In this document: positions 1 through 42,170 of the stretch, piece after piece | Layout: each line of letters opens with the position of its first letter | Numbering within the stretch: the first letter of the stretch is position 1 | The notes under the pieces: model-generated | Databases searched by the model: none | What the model saw: only the letters and a program-made list of their open reading frames with translations | What the model was told of the DNA's origin: nothing | Assembly: GCA_913049555.1 (NCBI GenBank) | Contig: CAJWYM010000011.1 | Span: forward strand, 1 to 58,002 | Direction of reading: 5' to 3' | Origin: an uncultured Opitutia bacterium | Lineage (GTDB): Bacteria; Verrucomicrobiota; Verrucomicrobiia; Opitutales; CAJWYM01 | Length of the DNA stretch: 58,002 nt | Translations under genes and position numbers: made by a program

Positions 1-78
1 GAGAATGTTAGCTTCAATCAAAATTCAAAATCAGTTTCAATGATGTCGGATGCCTTTATAACAAGACGCTTGAGTTGA
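1..78 (+). pseudogene. 3' end of a cassette gene cut by the window edge
   Basis: An open frame runs from the first base to a TGA at 76-78 and encodes 25 residues (ENVSFNQNSK...ITRRLS). The same C-terminal peptide, slightly diverged, recurs at 4211-4288 in front of a near-identical attC site, so this is very probably the end of a real cassette gene whose start lies left of the window. Function is unknown. The stop codon lies inside the attC site that follows, as often happens when cassette genes run into their recombination site. Confidence 0.45.
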
Positions 79-186
79 CAGAACCAGAAATCGAAAATTT
101 GAACTTTAAATGAGAAATCTAACTATTAACTTTAATTTAAACCAAATCCAGTTGTCTTGGTTCTGCTACTCAGCTTAGCGTTCAGC
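56..186 (+). other. attC site A (integron recombination site)
   Basis: The left end reads TTATAAC (56-62) and the right end GTTCAGC (180-186). Between them two imperfectly complementary arms, GCTTGAGTTGACAGAACC and GGTTCTGCTACTCAGC, would fold into a hairpin with unpaired bases, as attC bottom strands do. The recombination point would be after G180. The site is almost the same as site G at 4266-4396. Folding and HattCI-type scoring were not run. Confidence 0.7.
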
Positions 187-190
187 GAGA

Positions 191-1300
191 ATAAAGAAAC
201 CCCTAATCACACTGTTGATCGGAATTGCGATCGGGTCGGTTGGAACATTTACAACACTGCTCTATTTTGCGTCTAAGATGCAGGACTCTCCCTCGCCGGA
301 TGCGGAAGCAACCGATATCAATAATATTTTCCTCCCGGAAGGGACCGGAATATCGGGTGCCATTGTTTCCTCAACAGCTGTCATATATTTCCAGAGAGGT
401 AATCCGCAGCTAAATGAAGAAACTATTTATGAGATAGGGTCGATAACCAAGGTGTTCACCGCTCTTGCGATGGCCCTACACGACTCAAGAAACCCTGGCT
501 ACTTGTCTAAGTCTGTTGGAGAGATATTACCTAAACTCTCTGACTCGCAGATTTCCGACACAGCAATTAACTATCTACTGAACCATTCATCCGGACTCCC
601 TAGACTAGCTACCAGTTTCAGTGTTCTACACGTTTTGATGAATCGTTCTGATCCATATACCGACTACTCAAGGGACGATCTTTACGACGATTTACAAGCC
701 ACCGAATTAAGCGAAGAAGGATCGTACGAATACTCCAACTACGCATTCTGGGTAGCAGGCCTTTGTCTGGAGCAATCGACTTCGGTTGAGTACAAGGAAT
801 ATGTTACAAATGAACTGCTATCCCCGCTAGGGATGGCGAGTTCCTTTGTAGGAAACAACAGCAGTGCCAATGTCATTCTCGCCCAAGGCCACGACAAAAA
901 AGGAAAACGAACCAATTACTGGGAAAAGGATGCTGCCTCACCCGCCGGATCAATCAAAAGTTCGACTGAGGACATGAGCAGGTTTATTACAGCTTACATT
1001 CAAGGGACACATCCCGAATTGAAAGAAGCACTCGAAGTGATCACTAAGCCCACACTCGATGTAAACGATAACCACTCAGTTGGACTTGGCTGGCAGATTC
1101 GAAAGACAGATTCCGTTATATGGCACAATGGAGCAACTGGTGGATTTCGAAGTTTCATCGCGATATCTCCCGAAAACAATATTGGAGTTGTCTTGTTATG
1201 CAATTACGCGGGAGTCGAAGGGCTCGACAGATCAGGTTTCGATCTCCTAACAGGAAAAACCAAAATTGTTGAACAAGGCGGTGGATACAACTCCGGATAG
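191..1300 (+). CDS. Serine beta-lactamase-like hydrolase (class C / esterase EstB type), cassette 1
   Basis: This is a penicillin-binding-protein-like serine hydrolase (Beta-lactamase, PF00144 type). Numbered from TTG 215, the SxxK motif is S76-I-T-K79, the YxN motif is Y173-S-N175, and the third box is H304-N-G306. That set fits class C enzymes, D-aminopeptidases and esterases; the substrate cannot be read from sequence. The N terminus is a signal anchor. TTG 215 is the first usual start codon, but the frame is open back to ATA 191, which gives IKKPLITLLIGI, a typical signal start, so ATA 191 may be the true or a mutated ATG start. The last codons lie inside attC site B. It is the gene of a cassette spanning about 181-1334. 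A role in drug resistance should not be assumed. Confidence 0.75.
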   Translation: MKKPLITLLIGIAIGSVGTFTTLLYFASKMQDSPSPDAEATDINNIFLPEGTGISGAIVSSTAVIYFQRGNPQLNEETIYEIGSITKVFTALAMALHDSRNPGYLSKSVGEILPKLSDSQISDTAINYLLNHSSGLPRLATSFSVLHVLMNRSDPYTDYSRDDLYDDLQATELSEEGSYEYSNYAFWVAGLCLEQSTSVEYKEYVTNELLSPLGMASSFVGNNSSANVILAQGHDKKGKRTNYWEKDAASPAGSIKSSTEDMSRFITAYIQGTHPELKEALEVITKPTLDVNDNHSVGLGWQIRKTDSVIWHNGATGGFRSFIAISPENNIGVVLLCNYAGVEGLDRSGFDLLTGKTKIVEQGGGYNSG

Positions 1301-1340
1301 CGCTCCGCGCTAACCTCCACGCATCACCTAGACGTTATGA
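1268..1340 (+). other. attC site B
   Basis: A short site of 73 bp, from GTTGAAC (1268-1274) to GTTATGA (1334-1340). Its left arm, AACAAGGCGGTGG, matches the left arm of site E (AACAAGGCGGTGC), and the right end has the ACGTTA core. The last ten codons of the hydrolase gene, with its stop, overlap this site. Confidence 0.55.
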
Positions 1341-1355
1341 AAATTAAAAAATACT

Positions 1356-1961
1356 ATGAATGATATAATTGAAGTTTTTCCCTATATTTTCTTATTAATG
1401 GCGTTGTTCTTTTTTCTGATAGGCGGATCTGTTATATTTAAGAATAGAGCCATAGTGTTTTCAGCCAGATGGTTCTATGGTTTTATGGTATTTTCCTTTT
1501 TACCAAGTATAATTATGTCTATGGGAAGGTTTTTCGATGACAGACCTACAGATATATTGATCATGGATTTGGTTAGTACAGTTATGTATATAGTTATACT
1601 GTTTGTATTTTGGAAGCAAATGAAGGGAGCTATAATCATTGGTGTGACTGATGACTCCTTAAGGAAATCAATACATTTCACTTTAAAAGAATTGAACGAA
1701 GATTTCGAAGAGGCATTATCAAAAGTTATATTAAAACACAGAGATAATGAGTTGAACGTATCTATACAATCATGGATGGGGTCTGGCCAAGTTAAAATGA
1801 AAAAGAGCGATAACCAATTCATGAAAGATTATATATCTCTATCGAATCGATATTTTATGACTAGTGTTACTTCCGTAAATAGATTTACAGCATATTTTTA
1901 TATAATTATGGGAGGATTGATGGTCGCTTCTAGTATAGGAATGTTCTCTCTCTCAAATTGA
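1356..1961 (+). CDS. Cassette 2: membrane protein of unknown function
   Basis: The 201-residue product is not recognised. Hydrophobic stretches at about residues 8-28, 40-55, 65-83 and 175-197 suggest four membrane helices, with a soluble middle part of about 90 residues (85-175) rich in charged residues. The gene starts 21 nt after the attC core of site B and its stop is just before site C, so it fills one integron cassette. No Shine-Dalgarno is seen. Single membrane-protein cassettes of unknown role are common in integron arrays. I can offer no function. Confidence 0.6.
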   Translation: MNDIIEVFPYIFLLMALFFFLIGGSVIFKNRAIVFSARWFYGFMVFSFLPSIIMSMGRFFDDRPTDILIMDLVSTVMYIVILFVFWKQMKGAIIIGVTDDSLRKSIHFTLKELNEDFEEALSKVILKHRDNELNVSIQSWMGSGQVKMKKSDNQFMKDYISLSNRYFMTSVTSVNRFTAYFYIIMGGLMVASSIGMFSLSN

Positions 1962-1968
1962 AAATGAA

Positions 1969-2082
1969 GCACAACCAGACGGTGCTAATAACTCCTTTAC
2001 GCATCGCCGAGTCACTTCCGATGTAGAGCATGGAACCGTTCCTATCCGACGCTCCACTACGTAACAGACCTTAACGTTATGC
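1969..2082 (+). other. attC site C
   Basis: 114 bp from GCACAAC (1969-1975) to GTTATGC (2076-2082). The left arm GGTGCTAATAACTCC pairs imperfectly with the right arm around GTAACAGACC. Long stretches match site E (GGTGCTAATAACTCC, then TTACGC, then CGAGTCACT), so sites C and E belong to one attC family. Confidence 0.75.
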
Positions 2083-2090
2083 TAAATAAA

Positions 2091-2124
2091 TTGACATAAG
2101 GCACACATTGGATTCAATTTAAAT
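2091..2124 (+). promoter_or_regulatory. Possible cassette-borne promoter for the BrnT-type module
   Basis: A consensus -35 TTGACA lies at 2091-2096, just inside the cassette after the attC core, and an AT-rich stretch (TTTAAATT, to 2125) precedes the ATG at 2126. The -10 is not clear. The VapBC cassette also begins with TTGACA at nearly the same distance from its attC core (3364-3369). Toxin-antitoxin cassettes are known to carry their own promoters. Confidence 0.4.
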
Positions 2125-2125
2125 T

Positions 2126-2419
2126 ATGAGGCGTCATGATTGGAGTGAAGAAAAAAACCAGCTCATACAAAAAGAACGAAGTATCTCATTTGAAGATGTC
2201 TTATTCCAAATCGAATCAGGTGAGCTTATCGGTATAATTCCTCATCCTAACCAAAAAGATTATCCACATCAAAAAGTATACTTGGTGAATATTGATGATT
2301 ATGTTTACCTCGTTCCATTTGTAGAGGATGACGAAAAAATCTTCATGAAGACAATAATACCCAGTCGTAAGGCAACCAAAAAGTATCTAAAGGAAAGATC
2401 TGAAAATGAAATTAAATAA
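2126..2419 (+). CDS. BrnT-family toxin (type II toxin-antitoxin), cassette 3
   Basis: The 97-residue protein has the BrnT/RelE-fold layout: an N-terminal W-x-E-x-K-N motif (residues 5-10), an I-S-F-E-D box (19-23), a central strand region ending in a YLVPFV strand, and a C-terminal basic helix (SRKATKKYLK, about residues 81-90). BrnT proteins are ribonuclease toxins that block translation. The gene overlaps the next gene by 14 nt, and the toxin-first order fits BrnTA modules. It is diverged from typical BrnT, so family assignment is moderate. In an array, such modules are thought to stabilise the cassettes. Confidence 0.6.
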   Translation: MRRHDWSEEKNQLIQKERSISFEDVLFQIESGELIGIIPHPNQKDYPHQKVYLVNIDDYVYLVPFVEDDEKIFMKTIIPSRKATKKYLKERSENEIK

Positions 2420-2669
2420 AGAAGAAAAAAACATACTTGATCATTTCAATTCTAATGATTTCGAATTAGATGATAGCAAAAATGATATTCATGTGTCATA
2501 TGCGAAGAACACACTCAAAAAGGACAAAAGGATTAACATTAGAATCTCTTCTCGTGATTTAGAAGGAATCCAAAGAAAAGCCATTAAAGAGGGTCTTCCT
2601 TATCAATCATTAGTTTCAAGCGTATTGCATAAGTATGTAAGTGGGCAACTCACCGAAACAAGAGGATAA
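2406..2669 (+). CDS. Ribbon-helix-helix antitoxin (BrnA/CopG-like), cassette 3
   Basis: The 87-residue partner of the upstream toxin starts inside the toxin's 3' end. The C-terminal half has the ribbon-helix-helix pattern: a short strand (INIRIS, about 47-52), then two helices (DLEGIQRKAIKEG and YQSLVSSVLHKYV). The N-terminal half is acidic and probably flexible, as in antitoxin toxin-binding tails. It should neutralise the toxin and repress its own promoter. The stop codon falls within attC site D. The specific family (BrnA versus a generic CopG-like antitoxin) is not certain. Confidence 0.7.
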   Translation: MKLNKEEKNILDHFNSNDFELDDSKNDIHVSYAKNTLKKDKRINIRISSRDLEGIQRKAIKEGLPYQSLVSSVLHKYVSGQLTETRG

Positions 2670-2770
2670 CAAACCGATGGGCATTAACTGGGTATAGCAC
2701 CTGGGATGTCATGACTTATGCGGGGCATGAGATCCTGCCACACACCGCTACTATAACCAGTAAGTTATCT
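2664..2770 (+). other. attC-like site D
   Basis: 107 bp bounded by GGATAAC (2664-2670) and GTTATCT (2764-2770), which form a perfect outer inverted repeat GATAAC/GTTATC. Inside it, ACTGGGTATAGCACC pairs with GCTACTATAACCAGT. The inner sequence is unlike the other attC sites, and the end is not the usual AGCGTT or ACGTTA, so this is the least certain of the seven. Confidence 0.5.
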
Positions 2771-2773
2771 ATA

Positions 2774-3238
2774 ATGAAAAGGCTAATTCAACTCTTACTA
2801 CTAATAACAGTTCTACCTTTATATCCAACTCCTAATAGTGATGATATATTGATAGCTATAAGTAATATAAGATCCAATTTTATCAGTTCAGATACGCTCG
2901 AAGAAGGAAAATCTGTATTAGCGTTTGCTGAAGAGTCGGATGAAGTAATACTTGCTTTAAGCGTATCAACTATACCATGGATTGAAGAGGAATGGTTAGC
3001 TGATAAAGAAATGGAAGGCACTTTAAAAAATCTGATTTTAATAGCATATTTAGCAGGTAATATCCAAAGTCAGATACAAACAAAATCTTCAAAAGATGAT
3101 CCTTATTCAGGTTGGCTATTAGTTTGTGAAGGTTATGAACAACTTATAGAGAAACGAGAATTCAAAAGTGAGTCTATCGAGAAGTTTATTCAATTGAGAA
3201 ATGAAGGAAGATTAGTCGACTATGCGAATCAATTATAA
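2774..3238 (+). CDS. Cassette 4: small secreted protein of unknown function
   Basis: I chose ATG 2774 rather than the in-frame ATG 2711, because the upstream codons lie in the attC site and 2774 gives a clean signal peptide (MKRLIQLLLLITVLPLYPTP). The mature part, about 135 residues, is acidic and largely helical in appearance, with no recognised motif. The start lies only 4 nt past the attC core, so no promoter or ribosome site belongs to the cassette itself and expression would depend on read-through. The product is probably periplasmic. Function unknown. Confidence 0.55.
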   Translation: MKRLIQLLLLITVLPLYPTPNSDDILIAISNIRSNFISSDTLEEGKSVLAFAEESDEVILALSVSTIPWIEEEWLADKEMEGTLKNLILIAYLAGNIQSQIQTKSSKDDPYSGWLLVCEGYEQLIEKREFKSESIEKFIQLRNEGRLVDYANQL

Positions 3239-3239
3239 A

Positions 3240-3354
3240 AAATAACAAGGCGGTGCTAATAACTCCGTTACGCTTCGGCGAGTCACTCTCTTTAGCTTCG
3301 CAAAGAACCGTGCCAAGCCGAAGCTTCACTCCGTATCAGACCTAAACGTTAGTG
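3240..3354 (+). other. attC site E
   Basis: 115 bp from AAATAAC (3240-3246) to GTTAGTG (3348-3354). The inner arms CGTTACGCTTCGGCGAGTCA and GCCGAAGCTTCACTCCG are complementary over most of their length, and the outer arms GGTGCTAATAACTCCG and CCGTATCAGACC pair with gaps. This is a textbook attC shape and the clearest in the window. Confidence 0.8.
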
Positions 3355-3363
3355 AAATAAAAT

Positions 3364-3399
3364 TTGACATATGCATTAAATATACAGACATTAATGCAT
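3364..3399 (+). promoter_or_regulatory. vapBC -35 element and operator palindrome
   Basis: TTGACA (3364-3369) is followed by a perfect 9-bp inverted repeat, ATGCATTAA (3371-3379) and TTAATGCAT (3391-3399), with an 11-nt spacer. The right half overlaps the vapB start codon at 3398. VapB-type antitoxins bind such palindromes with VapC to repress their own operon, so this is a good operator candidate. No clear -10 is seen. Confidence 0.6.
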
Positions 3400-3580
3400 G
3401 AGAACTACACTTAATATTGACGACGAGATGCTTGAAAAGGCATCGAAACTAACGGGTATAAAAGAAAAAACATCACTTCTACATGAAGGATTGAAAGCTC
3501 TAATTGCAAAAGAAAGTTCAAAAAGATTAGCACTTCTTGGAGGAACCGCACCAGAAGTGAAAGATATTCCAAGAAGATAA
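3398..3580 (+). CDS. vapB: VapB-type antitoxin, cassette 5
   Basis: The 60-residue protein matches the VapB family with an N-terminal strand (MRTTLNIDDEML) and the helix pair KASKLTGIKEKTSLLHEGL. It should bind the palindrome over its own start as a dimer, and its C-terminal tail (from about residue 45, with LGGTAPEVKDIPRR) should block the VapC active site. Its stop TAA overlaps the vapC ATG by one base (A3580). The start ATG sits inside the operator half-site, so translation and repression are closely linked. Confidence 0.85.
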   Translation: MRTTLNIDDEMLEKASKLTGIKEKTSLLHEGLKALIAKESSKRLALLGGTAPEVKDIPRR

Positions 3581-3936
3581 TGATACTTGCAGACACATCT
3601 GTATGGATCGATTTCTTACGTAAGGGCAATGGACTACTTCAAGACCTTTTAGAGCAAGGGGAGATTTCAACTCATTCTTTAATCATTGGCGAACTCCATG
3701 TGGGTAACATCCCCAAACGAGATGCATTTTTATCATTAATGAGTGAATTACCAAGAGTGAAAGAAGCATCCTATAATGAAGTAATACACATGATTAATAC
3801 TCACAATCTATATAGTAAAGGTGTGGGCTTTTTTGATATGCATATCTTAGCTTCTTCTATTATAAGTAATACCACTCTTTGGACATTGGATAAGAGACTT
3901 GATAAGCTTTCAAAAGAGTTTAATATTAAGCACTAA
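3580..3936 (+). CDS. vapC: VapC-type PIN-domain ribonuclease toxin, cassette 5
   Basis: The 118-residue PIN domain begins MILADTSVWIDFL, typical of VapC. The acidic metal-binding residues can be assigned as D5, E38, D86 and D104. VapC toxins are Mg-dependent endoribonucleases, often cutting tRNA or rRNA; the target here is unknown. The gene follows vapB directly and its stop falls within attC site F, so the pair makes one mobile cassette. All four key acids are present, so the toxin is probably active. Confidence 0.85.
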   Translation: MILADTSVWIDFLRKGNGLLQDLLEQGEISTHSLIIGELHVGNIPKRDAFLSLMSELPRVKEASYNEVIHMINTHNLYSKGVGFFDMHILASSIISNTTLWTLDKRLDKLSKEFNIKH

Positions 3937-4043
3937 CAAGTCGATAATTCTATACAGATATAGCCTCCTTTGTCACGATTCCAGCTGAGGCTGGTAGTCC
4001 CGCCAAAAGTGTCTATATTTAGTATCATATCTTAGCGTTGTAT
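3931..4043 (+). other. attC site F
   Basis: 113 bp from CACTAAC (3931-3937) to GTTGTAT (4037-4043), with the common TTAGCGTT end. Inner arms CTATACAGATATAGCC and GTGTCTATATTTAGTAT pair imperfectly, and a GCTGAGGCTGG loop lies at the centre. It closes the VapBC cassette. Confidence 0.7.
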
Positions 4044-4288
4044 TAAATGAAACAATTGGAAGTCTGAAAAGTTGAAGTTTTACTCAATACATACCAAATC
4101 TACAGACAGAATGCACTCCTTTCTAATGTTGGATTAAAATGACTATTACCTCTGTAGACATAAAAAAACTGAGGTTGCAACATAAAGGTTTTTAAGGAAG
4201 AATTACCAATGAGAATGTTAGCTTCAATCAAAATTCAAAGAGGTTTTCAGTAGGATCAGATGGCTATATAACAAGCCGCTTGAGTTGA
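4044..4288 (+). pseudogene. Cassette 6: decayed cassette with a conserved gene tail
   Basis: Cassette 6 (about 4038-4390, 353 bp) has no intact gene. All frames across 4044-4195 are broken by stops. From 4196 to the TGA at 4286-4288 a 30-codon frame encodes a tail, GRITNENVSFNQNSKRFSVG and so on, homologous to the peptide encoded at 1-78. The two tails agree at most positions and end in the same SRLS/RRLS. This looks like a copy of the gene left of the window that lost its 5' part. Confidence 0.5.
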
Positions 4289-4396
4289 CAGAACCAGAAA
4301 TCGAAAATTTGAACTTTCAATTAGAATTCTAAATACTAATTTTAATTAAAACCAGATCCAGTTGTCTTGGTTCTGCTACTCAGCTTAGCGTTCGAT
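4266..4396 (+). other. attC site G (last of the array)
   Basis: 131 bp from ATATAAC (4266-4272) to GTTCGAT (4390-4396). The stretch from CGCTTGAGTTGACAGAACC to CAGCTTAGCGTTC nearly repeats site A, with a diverged loop. No further attC is seen to the right, so this marks the distal end of the array. Sites A and G together with the flanking coding tails make a roughly 180-bp imperfect direct repeat, 4.2 kb apart. Confidence 0.7.
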
Positions 4397-4801
4397 AAAA
4401 AATGATTATTCCAAAATAGTATATAAATTATACTATTGAGTTTGAGTATGGTGAGTGTAAAAGCCAGTCTAATTTTAAGAAGCACGGTATCGATTTCGAA
4501 GCTGGAAAAGAATTATGGGTGGATCCAATAGGTATTGATCGATGCCCGAGTTCAAGATACTTTAGATAAGCTCAAATTGAAGTTCATGGATAGAACTTGA
4601 TAATGATATTACATCTCCTATTGTTATGGACGGCAGGATTCAATTACCACGAATATCTTAAAAAATTATCTTAAATCAAATCATGTTTAATATGCTCCCT
4701 TATTTAATAACAGTTGGATATATTGATTTTCAACGTCTGATTGAATAGACTGAGCAAAAATTGTAGGAAAAAATATGTTAGAGTAATTGGGGGTTAGATT
4801 T
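4397..4801. other. Gap after the array, with a decayed brnT
   Basis: No intact gene is seen. The region contains a remnant of a BrnT toxin gene (listed separately) and, at its right end, the upstream region of the methyltransferase gene. No further attC site, tRNA or insertion sequence is visible. Confidence 0.5.
4426..4620 (+). pseudogene. Decayed brnT toxin gene
   Basis: The frame ending at TAA 4567-4569 encodes EFEYGECKSQSNFKKHGIDF followed by EAGKELWVDP, a clear match to the start of BrnT toxins (the F-E-W-D-x-x-K-x-x-x-N-x-x-K-H-G-I-x-F-E pattern). After the VDP motif the match moves to another frame (DARVQDTLDKLK), as BrnT proteins have an A-R-x-x-D motif there, so a frameshift is likely. 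There is no ATG at the expected start. It lies outside the last attC and may be an old cassette that lost its site. Confidence 0.6.
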
Positions 4802-5689
4802 ATGATTTATTGCAATTCTGTTAGTAAAACTGCTCTAGTGGTAGCAAAAAATCTGATCTTTTTCCACCGAGAGTATCCGCAAATTGATTTATCGGATCCT
4901 GCAACAGTGCAGTGGACTGAGTTATTATTGAATGAACTCAATCAAGGGAATCTACTGAATCGAAAATGGTATAGAGGATTGTTTCGAATCTTAGAAAAGT
5001 TAAGCATCCATGGACTTGCATTTCACCATGCTATCAGAAAAAAAATAATATTAGAATTTTACAATCAGTTTACTGATGATGAATTGGACAATTTAATTAT
5101 TGTGGGAGGTGGATTTGATGTTCTCTCTTTAATAGCAATAGAAAATGAAAAAACCAAAAAAATTACAGAACTAGATTCACCTGCTACCCAATTTGTTAAA
5201 GTTTCGATGTTAAAGAATCTTGGGTTAGATATATCCAAGTGCAATTATTTGGGTTTAGACTTAAATAATGAGCGGCTTAGTCACAAATTTAATGAAATGA
5301 ATGAACCTATTAAAGAAGCCTCCATTATTGTTTGTGAGGGGGTTTTAATGTATTTAACTGAAGAAAAGATTAGAGAATTTCTGATCGATTTATCCTTTCA
5401 TTTCAATGGCTCTAAGTTTATTTTTACTTTTATGAATAATCATGAGGGTTCATTTCATTTTGAAGGAACCTCTGTTTTAGCTAAAATTTGGCTTAGTCTG
5501 GTGGGTGAGCCATTCTTGTGGGGTATCAAACCAATTCATTTAAAATTGTTTTTAGAATCTTGTAACATGAGGCTTTTGGAGATAATAGATACCAGTGAAT
5601 GGGTGAATGATAATTTAGTTGAAGTGAAAGAGAAAGTCGCAGTTGGAGAATTTATTGCAGTGGCAACCCCGTTCAAAAAATCATGCTAG
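4802..5689 (+). CDS. SAM-dependent methyltransferase, leucine carboxyl methyltransferase (LCMT) type
   Basis: I start at ATG 4802, 8 nt after a GGGGG ribosome site (4789-4793), which gives 295 residues; the longer TTG start at 4787 lies on that site. The fold is that of the PF04072 family: a glycine-rich SAM loop (VGGGFDVLSL, about residues 100-110), an acidic ELDSPATQ motif, and CEGVLMYL before the later strands. Members of this family methylate carboxyl groups, and the substrate here cannot be told. The 3' end overlaps the next gene by 7 nt, so the two are co-translated and probably act on one substrate. Base composition is AT-rich, like the cassettes to its left. Confidence 0.75.
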   Translation: MIYCNSVSKTALVVAKNLIFFHREYPQIDLSDPATVQWTELLLNELNQGNLLNRKWYRGLFRILEKLSIHGLAFHHAIRKKIILEFYNQFTDDELDNLIIVGGGFDVLSLIAIENEKTKKITELDSPATQFVKVSMLKNLGLDISKCNYLGLDLNNERLSHKFNEMNEPIKEASIIVCEGVLMYLTEEKIREFLIDLSFHFNGSKFIFTFMNNHEGSFHFEGTSVLAKIWLSLVGEPFLWGIKPIHLKLFLESCNMRLLEIIDTSEWVNDNLVEVKEKVAVGEFIAVATPFKKSC

Positions 5690-7080
5690 AGGATAAGAAT
5701 AAATCGGGTGTCATTGTTAATGATGCTCAGTCTAAATTAAATTCTACATGGATGAAACGATTGCTTGTTCCCAAAGATATAAAAGAAATCAAGGATGCAC
5801 TGGTTGAGGCAGAAAATGAGGGTCTTATGATTTCTATCGCTGGAGGGCGCCATGCAATGGGTGGGCAGCAATTTGTTTCAGAGGGTCTGCTCTTAGATAT
5901 GAGTCATTTTAATAAAGTTATCCATTTTGATTCTAAGAATGGATGGATTGAGGTTCAAAGTGGCATTGAATGGAAGGAGTTGATCGAACATATTCACAAG
6001 ATAAAAGATAGTGAAATTCAATGGGCTATTCGGCAAAAGCAGACAGGGGTAGATGAGGTTAGTATTGGAGGTTCCATCTCCGCAAACATCCACGGTAGAG
6101 GTTTGAAGTTTTCACCCTTTGGTAGTGATATTGAATCTTTTAAATTGTTGAATGCAAAAGGAGATTTACTCAACTGCTCTAGAAGTGAAAACAAAGAACT
6201 TTTTTCTCTAGTAATTGGTGGTTATGGATTGTTTGGTATAATTACTCAAGTCGTTTTGAGGTTGGTTCCTCGTCATAAGGTGAAACGTGTTGTTGAAATT
6301 ATTAAAGTAAAGGATCTTGTTCAGAAATTTGAAAGCAGAATTCAGGATGGCGCTATTTATGGGGATTGCCAATATTCAATCGATTTATCAAGTGATTGGG
6401 GTGAGCACAAAGGAGTGTTTTCTTGTTATTACAACATAAGTAATGAAATTCCTGTGCCAAGAGGTCAAAAAAGGATCTCTAAAGAAAAATGGTCTGAATT
6501 GTACAAATTGACTAGAACAGATAAAGCGAAAGCATTTGATATTTATTCTAAGTTTTATCTGACTACAAATAACCAAATCTATTGGTCGGATACTCATCAA
6601 TTATCCAACGTATTTGACGGCTATCTGGAGAGTGTTGATGGCAATGAAGCAACAGAAATGATTACGGAGTTGTATATAACCAGAGACAAATTGATTCCTC
6701 TACTCACCGAGATTAAAAAAGACTTTTTAAAAAATGATGTGGATGTAACCTATGGAACGATTCGCTTGATTGAGAAAGATGATGATAGCTTTCTGGCATG
6801 GGCAACGGAACCCATGGTGTGTGTTGTATGCAATCTACATATAAAGCACTCCGCTGAGGAAATTAAAAAAGCCAAAGATAATTTTCAAAGAATGATTGAC
6901 CAAGTGATTTCCTTTGGTGGAAGATTCTATTTGACGTATCATCGTTGGGTCACAAGGCAACAGCTTGAGTCATGTTATCCACAATTTAAAGAGTTTCTGA
7001 AATTAAAATTAAAATATGATCCTCATGAAAGATTTCAAAGCACATGGTATCAATATTTTAAAGAGTTGATTGAAAATTGA
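5683..7080 (+). CDS. FAD-binding oxidoreductase (PCMH / VAO-type flavoprotein)
   Basis: This 465-residue flavoprotein has an N-terminal PCMH-type FAD domain: the strand-loop SIAGGRHAMGGQ (about residues 50-60), LLLDMSHFNKV, and the second FAD loop DEVSIGGSISANIHGRGL (about 124-141). The C-terminal half is the substrate-binding cap, ending in FQSTWYQYF, as in sugar-lactone oxidase and decaprenyl-ribose oxidase relatives. It should oxidise an alcohol or amine; substrate unknown. No signal peptide is present, so it acts in the cytoplasm. It overlaps the methyltransferase gene, and the pair looks like a small tailoring module. A possible terminator hairpin starts at its stop codon. Confidence 0.75.
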   Translation: MLEDKNKSGVIVNDAQSKLNSTWMKRLLVPKDIKEIKDALVEAENEGLMISIAGGRHAMGGQQFVSEGLLLDMSHFNKVIHFDSKNGWIEVQSGIEWKELIEHIHKIKDSEIQWAIRQKQTGVDEVSIGGSISANIHGRGLKFSPFGSDIESFKLLNAKGDLLNCSRSENKELFSLVIGGYGLFGIITQVVLRLVPRHKVKRVVEIIKVKDLVQKFESRIQDGAIYGDCQYSIDLSSDWGEHKGVFSCYYNISNEIPVPRGQKRISKEKWSELYKLTRTDKAKAFDIYSKFYLTTNNQIYWSDTHQLSNVFDGYLESVDGNEATEMITELYITRDKLIPLLTEIKKDFLKNDVDVTYGTIRLIEKDDDSFLAWATEPMVCVVCNLHIKHSAEEIKKAKDNFQRMIDQVISFGGRFYLTYHRWVTRQQLESCYPQFKEFLKLKLKYDPHERFQSTWYQYFKELIEN

Positions 7081-8945: not shown

Positions 8946-9519
8946 TTGAAAACTGCAGGATCTGTTTTCTCCAGTGCATCATTTTTTTGTTTCGATTTTG
9001 GATGGAAACCTAAAATTGAAATTCTATGGAGTCCGATAAATTGCCCAAGCCAATGCCTAGCGAATTGGATTCGTTCGCTTATCCAAAAGCTTTAAAATCA
9101 AAAACGGCAATGAAGAAAAATTCTTTGTTAGCGAAGTGTCTTATGTATTTAATAAATGGGGAATCCAGACGGTTTATGCAAACCCTGATGAATATTTAAG
9201 AATGGTTTTGGACAAGGGTTTGATCCGGTCTAAAAATTGCGCTAAAAATAGAAGCTTCTCCAAAGAAAATATAAAAAATTTTATAATCAATTTGGTGGAA
9301 CCTTTGAGATGAATTAAGAATTGAAATGCCTCAGAAAAGGATTCTGATTGCTTGTTTGGATCCAAGTGAATCATTCAATCCATTGTTGACAGAGCAGACT
9401 AGAAGTCTTTTTCATAAGATTGGTTGTCTTGGATTTCAGACCCGTTCTCAAAAGCTTAAATAAAGACCTATGGATTGGATAGTGTTCCAAGAAACCTCCA
9501 CTAATCTTATTGATTTTTC
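8946..9519. other. Long gap with degraded coding remnants
   Basis: No intact gene of normal size is seen over 574 bp. The region holds an open frame without a proper start (9061-9312) that overlaps a short ATG frame (9026-9199), listed separately. The rest is AT-rich sequence between two converging genes. No tRNA or insertion element is visible. Confidence 0.5.
9026..9312 (+). pseudogene. Possible decayed small gene
   Basis: An ATG frame (9026-9199) encodes a 57-residue peptide starting MESDKLPKPMPSELDSFAYP. The next frame, 9061-9312, has no start codon but reads like a true protein (NGNEEKFFVSEVSYVFNKWG, then QTVYANPDEYLRMVLDKG). One reading is that the ATG start and the second frame belonged to one gene split by a frameshift near 9090. 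I do not recognise the protein. Either frame could be chance. Confidence 0.3.
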
Positions 9520-11499
9520 TTATCCATTGGATCCAATAGAAACCATCTGATGCAATTCTATCTTTGGTATAGTGAAAGAACAGATTCCCTCATTAAATTC
9601 AAAAACCAATTCTTTATTTTCCGGAACCATTCTTACGAAATCTACAGACTTTGTTTTCAAAGAGATCGAGAGGTCATACAATGGAAGAATGTCCTCAATC
9701 ACTGGAACTTCTCCTCTCATAATTGGATTCGCATATAAAATATGCAGCACTTTGTTGCCATTGCTTTGTTCATTCAAGGCAATCTGCGCACCAGATGGCA
9801 AGTCTACATGAATGGACTTCTTGGGAAGTAGAAGGTCTATGCAATTTCTGACAAGGTCTCTATGCAACTTCATGCCTTTCTTGCGATACATGGAAAATAC
9901 CTTCGGACCTATGTAAATAATATTGCCATTCTGGATGACAGATGGATATCCGGCATCGGGACCTGGAGGAGTATTGCCATGGGAACAAAAGGTTTTTAAG
10001 GTGCGGTTGAAATGGGGTGCAATAGTATCCGCCAAAACTGTTGCACTCGTAAGCTTTAACTTTGGTCCAGGAAGAAAATTGAAGTAAGGCGCTTTTACCA
10101 TGTTTTTAGAAATCGCTTCGCTTACTTTTGTAAAATCAATGTACCATTCAGATTCTCCTCCATATTCGACCCCATAATCCAAGTTGAAGGTTTGATTTTC
10201 CTGACTGAAACCACTCTTTCCTGAAGCAATCAAAGCTCCACCATTTTTTAAGAAAGCATCCAACTTCACTTTTAAATCGGGTAAAATCACAACTTCATCC
10301 GGAAGTATCAAGAGCTTGTATTTTAATAAATCTGCTTGTTGATCTACCATATCATAAAGCATATGATTCTCACTCAATATCATACTGGCTCCAATTTCAG
10401 GATCTTCGAGTTCCACATTTTTCATAATAGCACTTGGACATAAAACCGCAATTTCAGCTATATTTTTAATATCGTCACACCAAGGCTCTTTTTCTTCAAC
10501 TTCTGCATAGGCCTCACCAATTCTTTTGTAAGTATCAAGGTCCAAAGTTCCCTCTGGAAGCATTTGATCCCCGACAGAACATTTACCTCCATACATGATC
10601 ATTCGCATGGCCTCAAAACGCAGAGCATCCGAACTTTTATATCCCCCAAACTCTCCCCAAGATTGATGAAATTTACCGGTCATACCTAAAAACTCGGAAA
10701 CCTTGTATTTGTAGTAGCGAGCTTTCTGAGGAAAGGATTCATAACCCCCACACCAAGACGTTGTGGGCAATGACTCTATTTCATGATGACTGTAATAGGG
10801 TTTGGTATCATCACGTCCTTTTTTGTCCTTGCCATTGTGGTAGACACGAGTGTTTGGATTCTTGGACCAAATCACTTCAGTGATTGTTTTGAAGTAATTT
10901 ACATACACTTCTCTGGCAAATTTAAAAACTGCAGCATCATCCTTCACATCTATGCCTCTTTTGAGCATGGATTCCATGCATGATTCACAGTAACAGGGTT
11001 TTTCCCAAACGATATCATAAAAGAGACCTACAGGATTGAAACGATCCATAACCTCTGCCGTCTGATTTACTAATTCTTCCAAATAAGGAGTGTTTAAACA
11101 AATCCGCATCCACCCTTTTCTCACACCACTAGAGGTATCTCGAACACTGCAAATACTGCCATCCTTCTTTTTGACAACCCACTCTGGATGCAAACGTCCG
11201 ATTCTCTCGTTCCAACCAACTGTGAGATAGATAGGCGTTTGAACCCCAATTTCATTAGCAGCCTCGATCATTTTTGGGAGCAAAGGTTCTTTCATGTTGG
11301 GGTGCATGTCGCAAACTTTTGAATCGTAATAGGCCCAACCGTGGTGACAGGTTGCAAAAGAAGTGACAGAATTTACATGACCCAGCTGTAGGCATTGCTG
11401 AAAAGAATCTTTATCAAAATCCCGTCCAATATTTTTTAAATGTTCAGAAGTGTGGAAATCTAGATGAATTTGACGGAATGGTAATTTTACATTTTTCAT
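9520..11499 (-). CDS. Glycoside hydrolase-like protein (GHL6 / alpha-L-fucosidase-like) with beta-galactosidase trimerisation domain
   Basis: The N-terminal part (about 1-340) is a TIM barrel of the putative glycosyl hydrolase 6 type. It carries FATCHHGWAYYDSKV (about 48-62), a strand ending in LFYDIVWEKPCYCESC (about 159-174), and YHNGKD. The part from about 350 to 540 resembles the glutamine-amidotransferase-like beta-galactosidase trimerisation domain (KLLILPDEVVILPDLK, GGALIASG). No signal peptide is present, so it should act on imported oligosaccharides in the cytoplasm. It follows an araC gene on the same strand and faces a sulfatase gene, which suggests a sulfated, possibly fucose-containing glycan. 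The exact activity is unknown. Confidence 0.65.
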   Translation of the reverse strand: MKNVKLPFRQIHLDFHTSEHLKNIGRDFDKDSFQQCLQLGHVNSVTSFATCHHGWAYYDSKVCDMHPNMKEPLLPKMIEAANEIGVQTPIYLTVGWNERIGRLHPEWVVKKKDGSICSVRDTSSGVRKGWMRICLNTPYLEELVNQTAEVMDRFNPVGLFYDIVWEKPCYCESCMESMLKRGIDVKDDAAVFKFAREVYVNYFKTITEVIWSKNPNTRVYHNGKDKKGRDDTKPYYSHHEIESLPTTSWCGGYESFPQKARYYKYKVSEFLGMTGKFHQSWGEFGGYKSSDALRFEAMRMIMYGGKCSVGDQMLPEGTLDLDTYKRIGEAYAEVEEKEPWCDDIKNIAEIAVLCPSAIMKNVELEDPEIGASMILSENHMLYDMVDQQADLLKYKLLILPDEVVILPDLKVKLDAFLKNGGALIASGKSGFSQENQTFNLDYGVEYGGESEWYIDFTKVSEAISKNMVKAPYFNFLPGPKLKLTSATVLADTIAPHFNRTLKTFCSHGNTPPGPDAGYPSVIQNGNIIYIGPKVFSMYRKKGMKLHRDLVRNCIDLLLPKKSIHVDLPSGAQIALNEQSNGNKVLHILYANPIMRGEVPVIEDILPLYDLSISLKTKSVDFVRMVPENKELVFEFNEGICSFTIPKIELHQMVSIGSNG

Positions 11500-11757: not shown

Positions 11758-12537
11758 TTAAGATCGGATCCGATTTCTAAAGGCCAAAGGGGTTTCTCCT
11801 GTTTTTTTCTTAAACAAGCGCGAAAAATAATAGGGGTCTTCAATCCCTACTTTCACTGAAATTTCATACACTTTATAATCTGTATTGGTTAAAAAGTTTT
11901 GGGCACTTTCGATTCGTTTTTTTATCAAATATTGATTGATGGGCAATCCAACTGTGGAAGAAAATAAATTAGCAAAATACACTGGATCTAATCCTTCTCG
12001 TTTCGCCAAGTATTCAATATCCAATGCCTTGAAATAATTCTCATCTAAGTATTGAAGCGTTTCTTTGAGCCGATGCCTCTCAAAGTCCTTTTGCACCCCG
12101 TCTTTTAAAAAATAAGAAGTCAAAATAGCCAAACTTCCTTGCGCTTTAAAATAGTGATGGATTCTTTTGTCCTTAGTATAGCGAATACAAGATTCAAACA
12201 ATCCAATCACTCGATCCTCTACCCTGAGTCCCTGAGCCATCAAATTACTAAACATCCATTGGATCTTTTTAGAATCCGAGGTAAAATGAATGTATAAGTG
12301 ATCCAAGGATTTTTTGCACTCAGACTCAACAATACAATATGCGGGGATGAAATAAAGGTATCCAGGTTGTAAAACAATCTGTTTGTCCAAAGTCTTTAAA
12401 AGGGCCTCTCCAGAAAGGACATAGTAGAATCTGTGATCAGCAAAGGAATAATGTTTTTTTGACCACGTCTCATGGACGAGGATTTGACCCGCTCGGATAA
12501 TTTGATATTCGATACTAAGTGATTTTGAATGTAACAC
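11758..12537 (-). CDS. AraC-family transcriptional regulator
   Basis: The 259-residue regulator has an N-terminal cupin-like sensing domain (strand pattern HRFYYVLSGEALLKTL, about 36-51) and a C-terminal AraC DNA-binding domain (about 160-257). The second helix-turn-helix ends in the family signature IEDPYYFSRLFKKKTGETPL. It starts with GTG. It lies between the glycosidase gene, on the same strand and downstream, and the divergent sulfatase gene, so it is very probably their sugar-responsive activator. The ligand cannot be told. A TATACT hexamer directly abuts the GTG, so the true start may lie further in. Confidence 0.85.
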   Translation of the reverse strand: MLHSKSLSIEYQIIRAGQILVHETWSKKHYSFADHRFYYVLSGEALLKTLDKQIVLQPGYLYFIPAYCIVESECKKSLDHLYIHFTSDSKKIQWMFSNLMAQGLRVEDRVIGLFESCIRYTKDKRIHHYFKAQGSLAILTSYFLKDGVQKDFERHRLKETLQYLDENYFKALDIEYLAKREGLDPVYFANLFSSTVGLPINQYLIKKRIESAQNFLTNTDYKVYEISVKVGIEDPYYFSRLFKKKTGETPLAFRNRIRS

Positions 12538-41050: not shown

Positions 41051-42170
41051 TTCTGGCGTTTAAAATAAATAATTGTAAGATTCCTTGAATAAGCCCATTA
41101 CTCAAGACTTGATCCTCTAATCTAGCATATAATTTTACCTCTTTAGGACAATTTCCCGGAAACCAATGAAACCAATAAGCATAAAACTGCTCTCGCTCCA
41201 TTTGAGAAGCAATCATTGGCAGCAATACATCACAAACAACAGTATTCAACAAGTTTTCTGAAAAAACGTTGGCAAAAACCTGATGCTTTAAATGTTCTTG
41301 TAATTTCTTCAGACGAACCTCTTTTCGAAAAGAGCTTGTGTCTCCTTCCGTTGGTAGATTCTTCAAAAAAAGATCCTTAAGGCTTTCCTCAAAATTTACA
41401 TCCTTTGATCGAATGAGTCGAAGATAGGCATCCAATCTTTTTTTAGGGTGAGCGGGTGGCAAGACCCCTCTTAATCTCCAAGTCTTTTGACTTTTAAATA
41501 GAAATTCCGCATCCCACAATTCATTTTTTTGCAAATCATCTAAAGTAAATTGATGAGAGATCGCTGACATGCTTTCTTTATTTTTGCGAGCTCCCAAAGC
41601 TTCCAGAATCAATTGATGAAAAGAAGTCTTCCAACCAACCGAATCGATTTTTTGGGAGCAGTTTTCACACTTTTGAATCCATCGAGTTCTGGAGCAATCT
41701 TGGATCAAAGAAGCATTCAACTCCAAAGATAAAGGATCCTCCAATCCCTTAGCAAGCGCGCGAATCCCGTAATCCTCAATAGTCTCATCCAAACTATCCT
41801 CTAAATATGGTAAAAGGATAAGAAGAGGAAGCTTGTCTGATTTTCTTTGCAAATTTACCTCAGGAAAAACCGCCACTTGAAGTATTATATCTTGGAAATT
41901 AAAATCCAAACAGTCATTAGGATAAATATGGACGGATACCTTTCCACAAATTTCTTTTTCATCCAATTTAAATTTTGCTTCACGGAAAACTGAAAAATTT
42001 TGAGGATCCTTATCACCACAATCCAAAATTAAAATCTTCCTACCATCCTCCAAGCGCAAAGCATCCGAGTTAAAAAAACCTTCCTGCCAGATGTAGTGGA
42101 TAAACTCTACAGGAACATTCACAGTCCCATGAGGCCCCATATATTCAGCCACTTTTAATTTCCCATCCAT
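41043..42170 (-). CDS. DUF2851-like protein
   Basis: The 375-residue protein resembles DUF2851 in its N-terminal part: EICGKVSVHIYPNDCLDFNF followed by QDIILQVAVFPEV, a strand pair typical of that family (G-D-V-E-I-H-L ... V-I-L-H-V-V). ALGARKN in the middle matches the L-G-Y-x-x-N region. The biochemical role of DUF2851 is not known to me. A pair of Cys (CENCSQK, about 170) is seen but no second pair, so no zinc finger is claimed. It is the first gene of the hemF-hemE-def run, overlapping hemF by 8 nt, which hints at a shared regulation rather than function. Confidence 0.6.
   Translation of the reverse strand: MDGKLKVAEYMGPHGTVNVPVEFIHYIWQEGFFNSDALRLEDGRKILILDCGDKDPQNFSVFREAKFKLDEKEICGKVSVHIYPNDCLDFNFQDIILQVAVFPEVNLQRKSDKLPLLILLPYLEDSLDETIEDYGIRALAKGLEDPLSLELNASLIQDCSRTRWIQKCENCSQKIDSVGWKTSFHQLILEALGARKNKESMSAISHQFTLDDLQKNELWDAEFLFKSQKTWRLRGVLPPAHPKKRLDAYLRLIRSKDVNFEESLKDLFLKNLPTEGDTSSFRKEVRLKKLQEHLKHQVFANVFSENLLNTVVCDVLLPMIASQMEREQFYAYWFHWFPGNCPKEVKLYARLEDQVLSNGLIQGILQLFILNARNG

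Follow-up and report, generated by a model that had tools for sequence, protein, structure and literature searches.

Gene content of the locus

The stretch of DNA analysed here (the window, 58,002 nucleotides) is the whole of contig C11, one of the 102 contigs of a 3.10 Mb genome that is 95% complete. The closest relatives of its hemE gene are Opitutales/Opitutia MAGs, which supports the Verrucomicrobiota host proposed by an earlier examination of the letters alone (the sequence-only reading). The first 4.4 kb of the window carry plus-strand genes separated by seven attC sites, named A to G. The window begins at the first base of the contig, and the leftmost cassette, cassette A, is thus truncated to a tail (1–55, plus strand) while the left flank is unreadable.

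Cassette 1 (215–1300, plus strand) encodes a 361-amino-acid serine hydrolase of the PF00144 (beta-lactamase) superfamily (Pfam E-value 1.5e-40), with a TTG start and an N-terminal hydrophobic segment. Its assignment to class C beta-lactamases was rejected, the NCBIfam model bla_class_C giving 93.5 bits against a cut-off of 415, and the annotation is kept at the level of the superfamily. The 201-amino-acid, membrane-like protein of cassette 2 (1356–1961, plus strand) is an orphan: it has no match in Pfam, NCBIfam or PADLOC and no homologue in plasmids or in any other of the 373 genomes sampled from the order. Cassette 3 carries an overlapping gene pair on the plus strand. The product of the first gene (2126–2419) is predicted to be a BrnT-like RNase toxin, with a full-length match to PF04365 (E-value 2.6e-5) whose 24.9 bits lie below the gathering cut-off of 34.5; its neighbour (2406–2669) encodes a CopG/BrnA-type antitoxin that scores above the cut-off (PF12441, E-value 1.5e-7), and the stop codon of this second gene falls within the outer box of attC D. 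Cassette 4 (2774–3238, plus strand, with a longer open reading frame from 2711) encodes a secreted-like protein of 154 amino acids. Homologues occur in seven further genomes of the order; in one of these, the IntI-bearing genome G271, the homologue lies directly upstream of three attC-like sites. Cassette 5 is a second plus-strand pair, composed of a VapB antitoxin gene (3398–3580, PF09957, E-value 6.6e-16) and a gene for a predicted VapC toxin of the PIN-domain family (3580–3936, PF01850, E-value 3.4e-7), whose stop codon sits within the outer box of attC F. Cassette 6 (4043–4265, plus strand) is related to the truncated cassette A; it has no plus-strand open reading frame of at least 40 amino acids and is taken to be decayed or non-coding.

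The Pfam matches bear out the toxin–antitoxin and hydrolase cassettes that the sequence-only reading had announced. Its further claim of one gene or gene pair on the plus strand between successive sites holds in general and fails for the F–G interval (4043–4265) occupied by cassette 6. In all the coding cassettes, the stop codon lies in or beside the 5′ outer box of the site that follows, and no more than about 60 bp separate the 3′ box from the start of the next gene; the cassette 1 open reading frame overruns into site B by about 30 bp. PADLOC returned nothing notable. Sigma-70-like sites number 16, against 17.8 in shuffled sequences, and for this reason no claim is made regarding cassette promoters.

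To the right of attC G, a frameshifted BrnT remnant (4430–4580, plus strand; PF04365 E-value 7.7e-5, 23.4 bits on a fragment) is followed by chromosomal genes, namely an LCM-family methyltransferase (4787–5689) and an FAD-linked oxidase (5683–7080). The remnant, located just past the last attC, looks like a decayed former cassette whose own attC is no longer recognisable.

The seven attC sites

All seven sites that the sequence-only reading had listed are present, with AAC...GTT outer boxes, lengths of 72 to 130 bp and a single orientation: the folding (bottom) strand is the minus strand in every case and the cassette sense is plus. The coordinates given here are refined and run from R-box to R-box. 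Sites A (56–185) and G (4266–4395), the latter being the last recognised site of the array, are identical at 118 of 130 positions, and the repeat extends 55 bp into the tails of their cassettes (88% identity over the common 183 bp). Sites C (1969–2081) and E (3240–3353) share 88 of 117 positions. The A/G and C/E families proposed before are therefore retained, as is the isolated status of D (2664–2769) and F (3931–4042, conserved boxes TAACAAGTCG/CTTAGCGTT). Site B (1268–1339), which had also been set apart, has its 5′ side in common with C and E and matches sites of an outside array. In most sites the outer boxes deviate from GTTRRRY, which we count against the integron reading. Site D is atypical, with perfect 6-bp outer boxes, a long inner stem and asymmetric spacers of 3 and 16 nt. 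It is the weakest of the seven and is located exactly in the inter-cassette gap where a site is required; we regard it as a divergent attC.

Scoring by covariance models

A first attC scan, based on stem score alone, found A, G and F together with many chance stems, and covariance models were adopted in consequence. The first model, R1, was built from 17 aligned attC sites (alignment A2) taken from arrays adjacent to integrases in other genomes of the order, all of these integrases scoring above the TIGR02249 cut-off, and its training contains no window sequence. The pairs assumed in R1 are 83% paired, and changes on both sides number 34, compared with 13 for shuffled sequences. When R1 was run without filters on both strands of the 58 kb window, its six best matches included B (20.1 bits), G (15.1 bits), A (15.0 bits), C (13.3 bits) and E (13.2 bits), all full-length, on the minus strand and with correct ends; a single match scoring that high was found in the remaining 53.6 kb, and sites D and F were missed. 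The per-site E-values are modest, from 0.007 (site B) to 0.38, and the result owes its strength to matches that cluster, share one strand and end exactly, rather than to any single E-value. The sequence-only reading had made scoring by covariance models one of its tests, and a model derived from IntI-linked arrays scores five of its seven sites. The outcome it had named against itself, sites left unscored by such models together with a genome devoid of integrase, is not the one observed, since the models score the sites.

The second model, R2, was trained on six window sites (all except D) together with four sites of relatives. In its alignment, pairing reaches 91% in the inner stem of 10 pairs, eight of which have changed on both sides, and the whole structure is 83% paired, falling to 29–50% when the partners are slid; these counts lean towards structure, as the pairs were picked by eye on a MAFFT alignment. 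Training-set members A, F and G score 75.4, 60.1 and 78.5 bits, respectively, while D, outside the training set, is matched at its exact expected position with 11.2 bits (E-value 1.5), in addition to its fold. In relatives, R2 detects dozens of sites in integrase-linked arrays, including about 18 in the array L052 of genome G363, which belongs to another family and is absent from the training. Site B is 67–74% identical to the IntI-linked attC sites of L052, and the letters of the inner arms change together between them (GGTGAT...ATCCACC vs AGCCAT...ATGGGCT), in a compensatory manner. Two further R2 matches in the window, at 11808–11867 (16.6 bits) and 41904–41978 (14 bits), lie inside chromosomal open reading frames and were rejected as chance matches. 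Compared with shuffles, folding energies are strong for A, F and G alone (z about -2.7; -2.69 for F), those of B, C and D being weak, and consequently we take covariation and homology, not stability, as the evidence.

A second attC locus interrupted by a group II intron

An eighth attC, outside the training set, was found by R2 on another contig of the same genome (C3:91921–92034, 42 bits, E-value 9e-7). It is identical to site E at 80 of 117 positions, and it is followed, after about 90 bp in the cassette sense, by the start of a sulfatase gene. On the bottom strand, this attC reads ...CTATTTGT and is then continued by GTGTGCC, the start of an intron; the interruption point is thus TTTGT/GTGTG, on the bottom strand and antisense to the cassette direction. 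The intron is recognised by Rfam RF02001 (117 bits) and carries a reverse transcriptase (RVT_1, 65 bits). The published target of group IIC-attC introns is TTGT/T in the bottom strand of attC sites, with the intron antisense to the cassettes (PMC7923331). The placement of the C3 intron fits this habit, and its insertion site, compared on the 5′ side, would make it a putative member of the group. The locus (C3:91921–93084, equivalent to L078:9922–11085) ends with the contig, the intron and its reverse transcriptase reading frame running off the end, and a search of the assembly for the remainder of the reverse transcriptase found nothing.

Nature of the array and state of its integrase

We conclude with high confidence that a chromosomal integron cassette array ends here, the locus being its distal (right-hand) part. 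This conclusion is carried by the sites themselves, their single orientation, their common structure and covariation, their homology to integrase-linked attC and the gene content. Each cassette would consist of a gene or gene pair and its attC, the bottom (minus) strand of which would form an imperfect hairpin bordered by the AAC/GTT outer boxes. A tyrosine recombinase, IntI, provided from the left or in trans, would recombine the folded bottom strand, and cassettes would in this way be inserted, excised or shuffled. Through addiction, the VapBC and BrnT-like/CopG cassettes would probably stabilise the array, and the hydrolase and the orphan proteins may represent adaptive cargo. From the sequence we infer that the sites recombine, that the left flank, which is not assembled, encodes IntI, and that the toxins have activity.

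The sequence-only reading had predicted an intI gene to the left of the array, a side on which C11 ends at base 1. The criterion for IntI was the TIGR02249 cut-off of 265 bits. No protein of the 95%-complete assembly reaches it, and no TIGR02249 match exceeds 80 bits; the tyrosine recombinases on contigs C44, C48, C34, C28, C38, C75 and C19 score at most 78 of the 265 bits and were rejected as IntI candidates, being XerC/D-like or fragments. A left continuation of the array was sought in the assembly through the A/G repeat, and the two copies on C11 were the sole matches. The assembly without IntI, and without attI or Pc at a locus cut off on its left, the failure of R1 to detect D and F and its modest E-values also speak against an integron. 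Two of the contigs with rejected recombinases show features of their own. On C34 (L013), the motif (g/c)acaggcaat(a/c)tatgct is repeated at 1320–1345, 1558–1580 and 3428–3445, near a C-terminal tyrosine-recombinase fragment and the end of an RHS-like gene, in an arrangement that resembles mobile-element debris. On C28 (L014), 9376–9627 encodes a lone C-terminal fragment (about 73 amino acids) of a phage-type tyrosine recombinase beside a divergent HTH regulator gene.

Could the elements be hairpin-forming repeats between genes (terminators, REP-like or MITE-like sequences) that resemble attC by chance? Sites B, C and D, whose folding is unexceptional against shuffles, would suit such repeats, but the elements are long, diverse and unidirectional, with conserved box and spacer motifs, they are scored by a model trained on integrase-linked attC, and site B is homologous to such attC. 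Moreover, a single terminator-like site was found, located within the cassette 1 open reading frame, and the only further copy found in the genome is the intron-interrupted attC of C3. We consider this explanation very improbable.

The state of the integrase leaves more room. A CALIN, in the working definition, has two or more attC spaced by no more than 4 kb and lacks an integrase in the vicinity; with seven attC in 4.4 kb and no IntI in the genome assembly, the locus is formally a CALIN. It could be a stable one, a relic array whose integrase was truly lost or never present and whose cassettes are mobile only with outside help; this would be a refinement of the integron-array interpretation, and both can hold. 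The absence from a 95%-complete assembly of any TIGR02249 match above 80 bits points in this direction, as do the decayed BrnT remnant and the cassette devoid of open reading frame at the distal end, and the fact that 294 of the 373 genomes sampled from the order lack an IntI that passes the cut-off. Against it, array sequence is plainly missing from the assembly: both attC loci, on C11 and C3, run off contig ends, the remainder of the intron reverse transcriptase is absent, and an intI gene adjoining such an array would drop out likewise. For these reasons the absence of IntI is not evidence of its loss, and with IntI present in the other 79 genomes, "lost" and "unassembled" are inseparable. 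We regard a stable relic as a possible, though less probable, state; the likeliest is a sedentary chromosomal integron broken by the assembly, which we favour with some reserve. It seems rather unlikely that the lineage has been permanently without IntI while keeping at least two attC loci, one of them colonised by an attC-specific group II intron. If that were true, the cassettes and the intron would be maintained and moved only by trans-acting integrases or by the intron itself.

Comparison with known systems

The closest parallels are the sedentary chromosomal arrays of other Opitutales (G163/L051, G251/L047 and G363/L052), which share with the C11 array the attC architecture, the box and spacer motifs, the single orientation and the small cassettes of one gene or gene pair, in addition to the resemblance of site B to L052. 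In those arrays intI adjoins the cassettes, whereas here the left flank is missing and intI is not assembled; the C11 sites are also more AT-rich, with less complementary outer boxes. CALIN elements likewise have at least two attC less than 4 kb apart and no integrase found, but its absence here may be an assembly artefact. In Halorhodospira halochloris, group II introns and BrnT/A cassettes occur together in a CALIN, in a genome without a detected intI (PMC7923331). The Opitutales genome has the same combination of BrnT-type toxin–antitoxin cassettes, attC-associated group II intron and undetected intI; in H. halochloris the introns lie within toxin–antitoxin cassettes of one CALIN, whereas here the intron splits an attC at a second locus.

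The array is real and belongs to a poorly studied family, and the kind of element is ordinary and already known. Cassettes that encode toxin–antitoxin pairs, contain two open reading frames or lack any are typical (PMC8618304), and they have already been documented along with Verrucomicrobiota integrons and CALINs (PMC8618304, PMC9668308). The understanding of integrons is unchanged by this array; what it contributes is one more array, together with a group II intron that targets attC, for an Opitutales family with one genome in the compared collection. In the integron literature searched, the order is little described, and integron integrases occur in about a fifth of its sampled genomes (79/373), several of which carry two to five copies.
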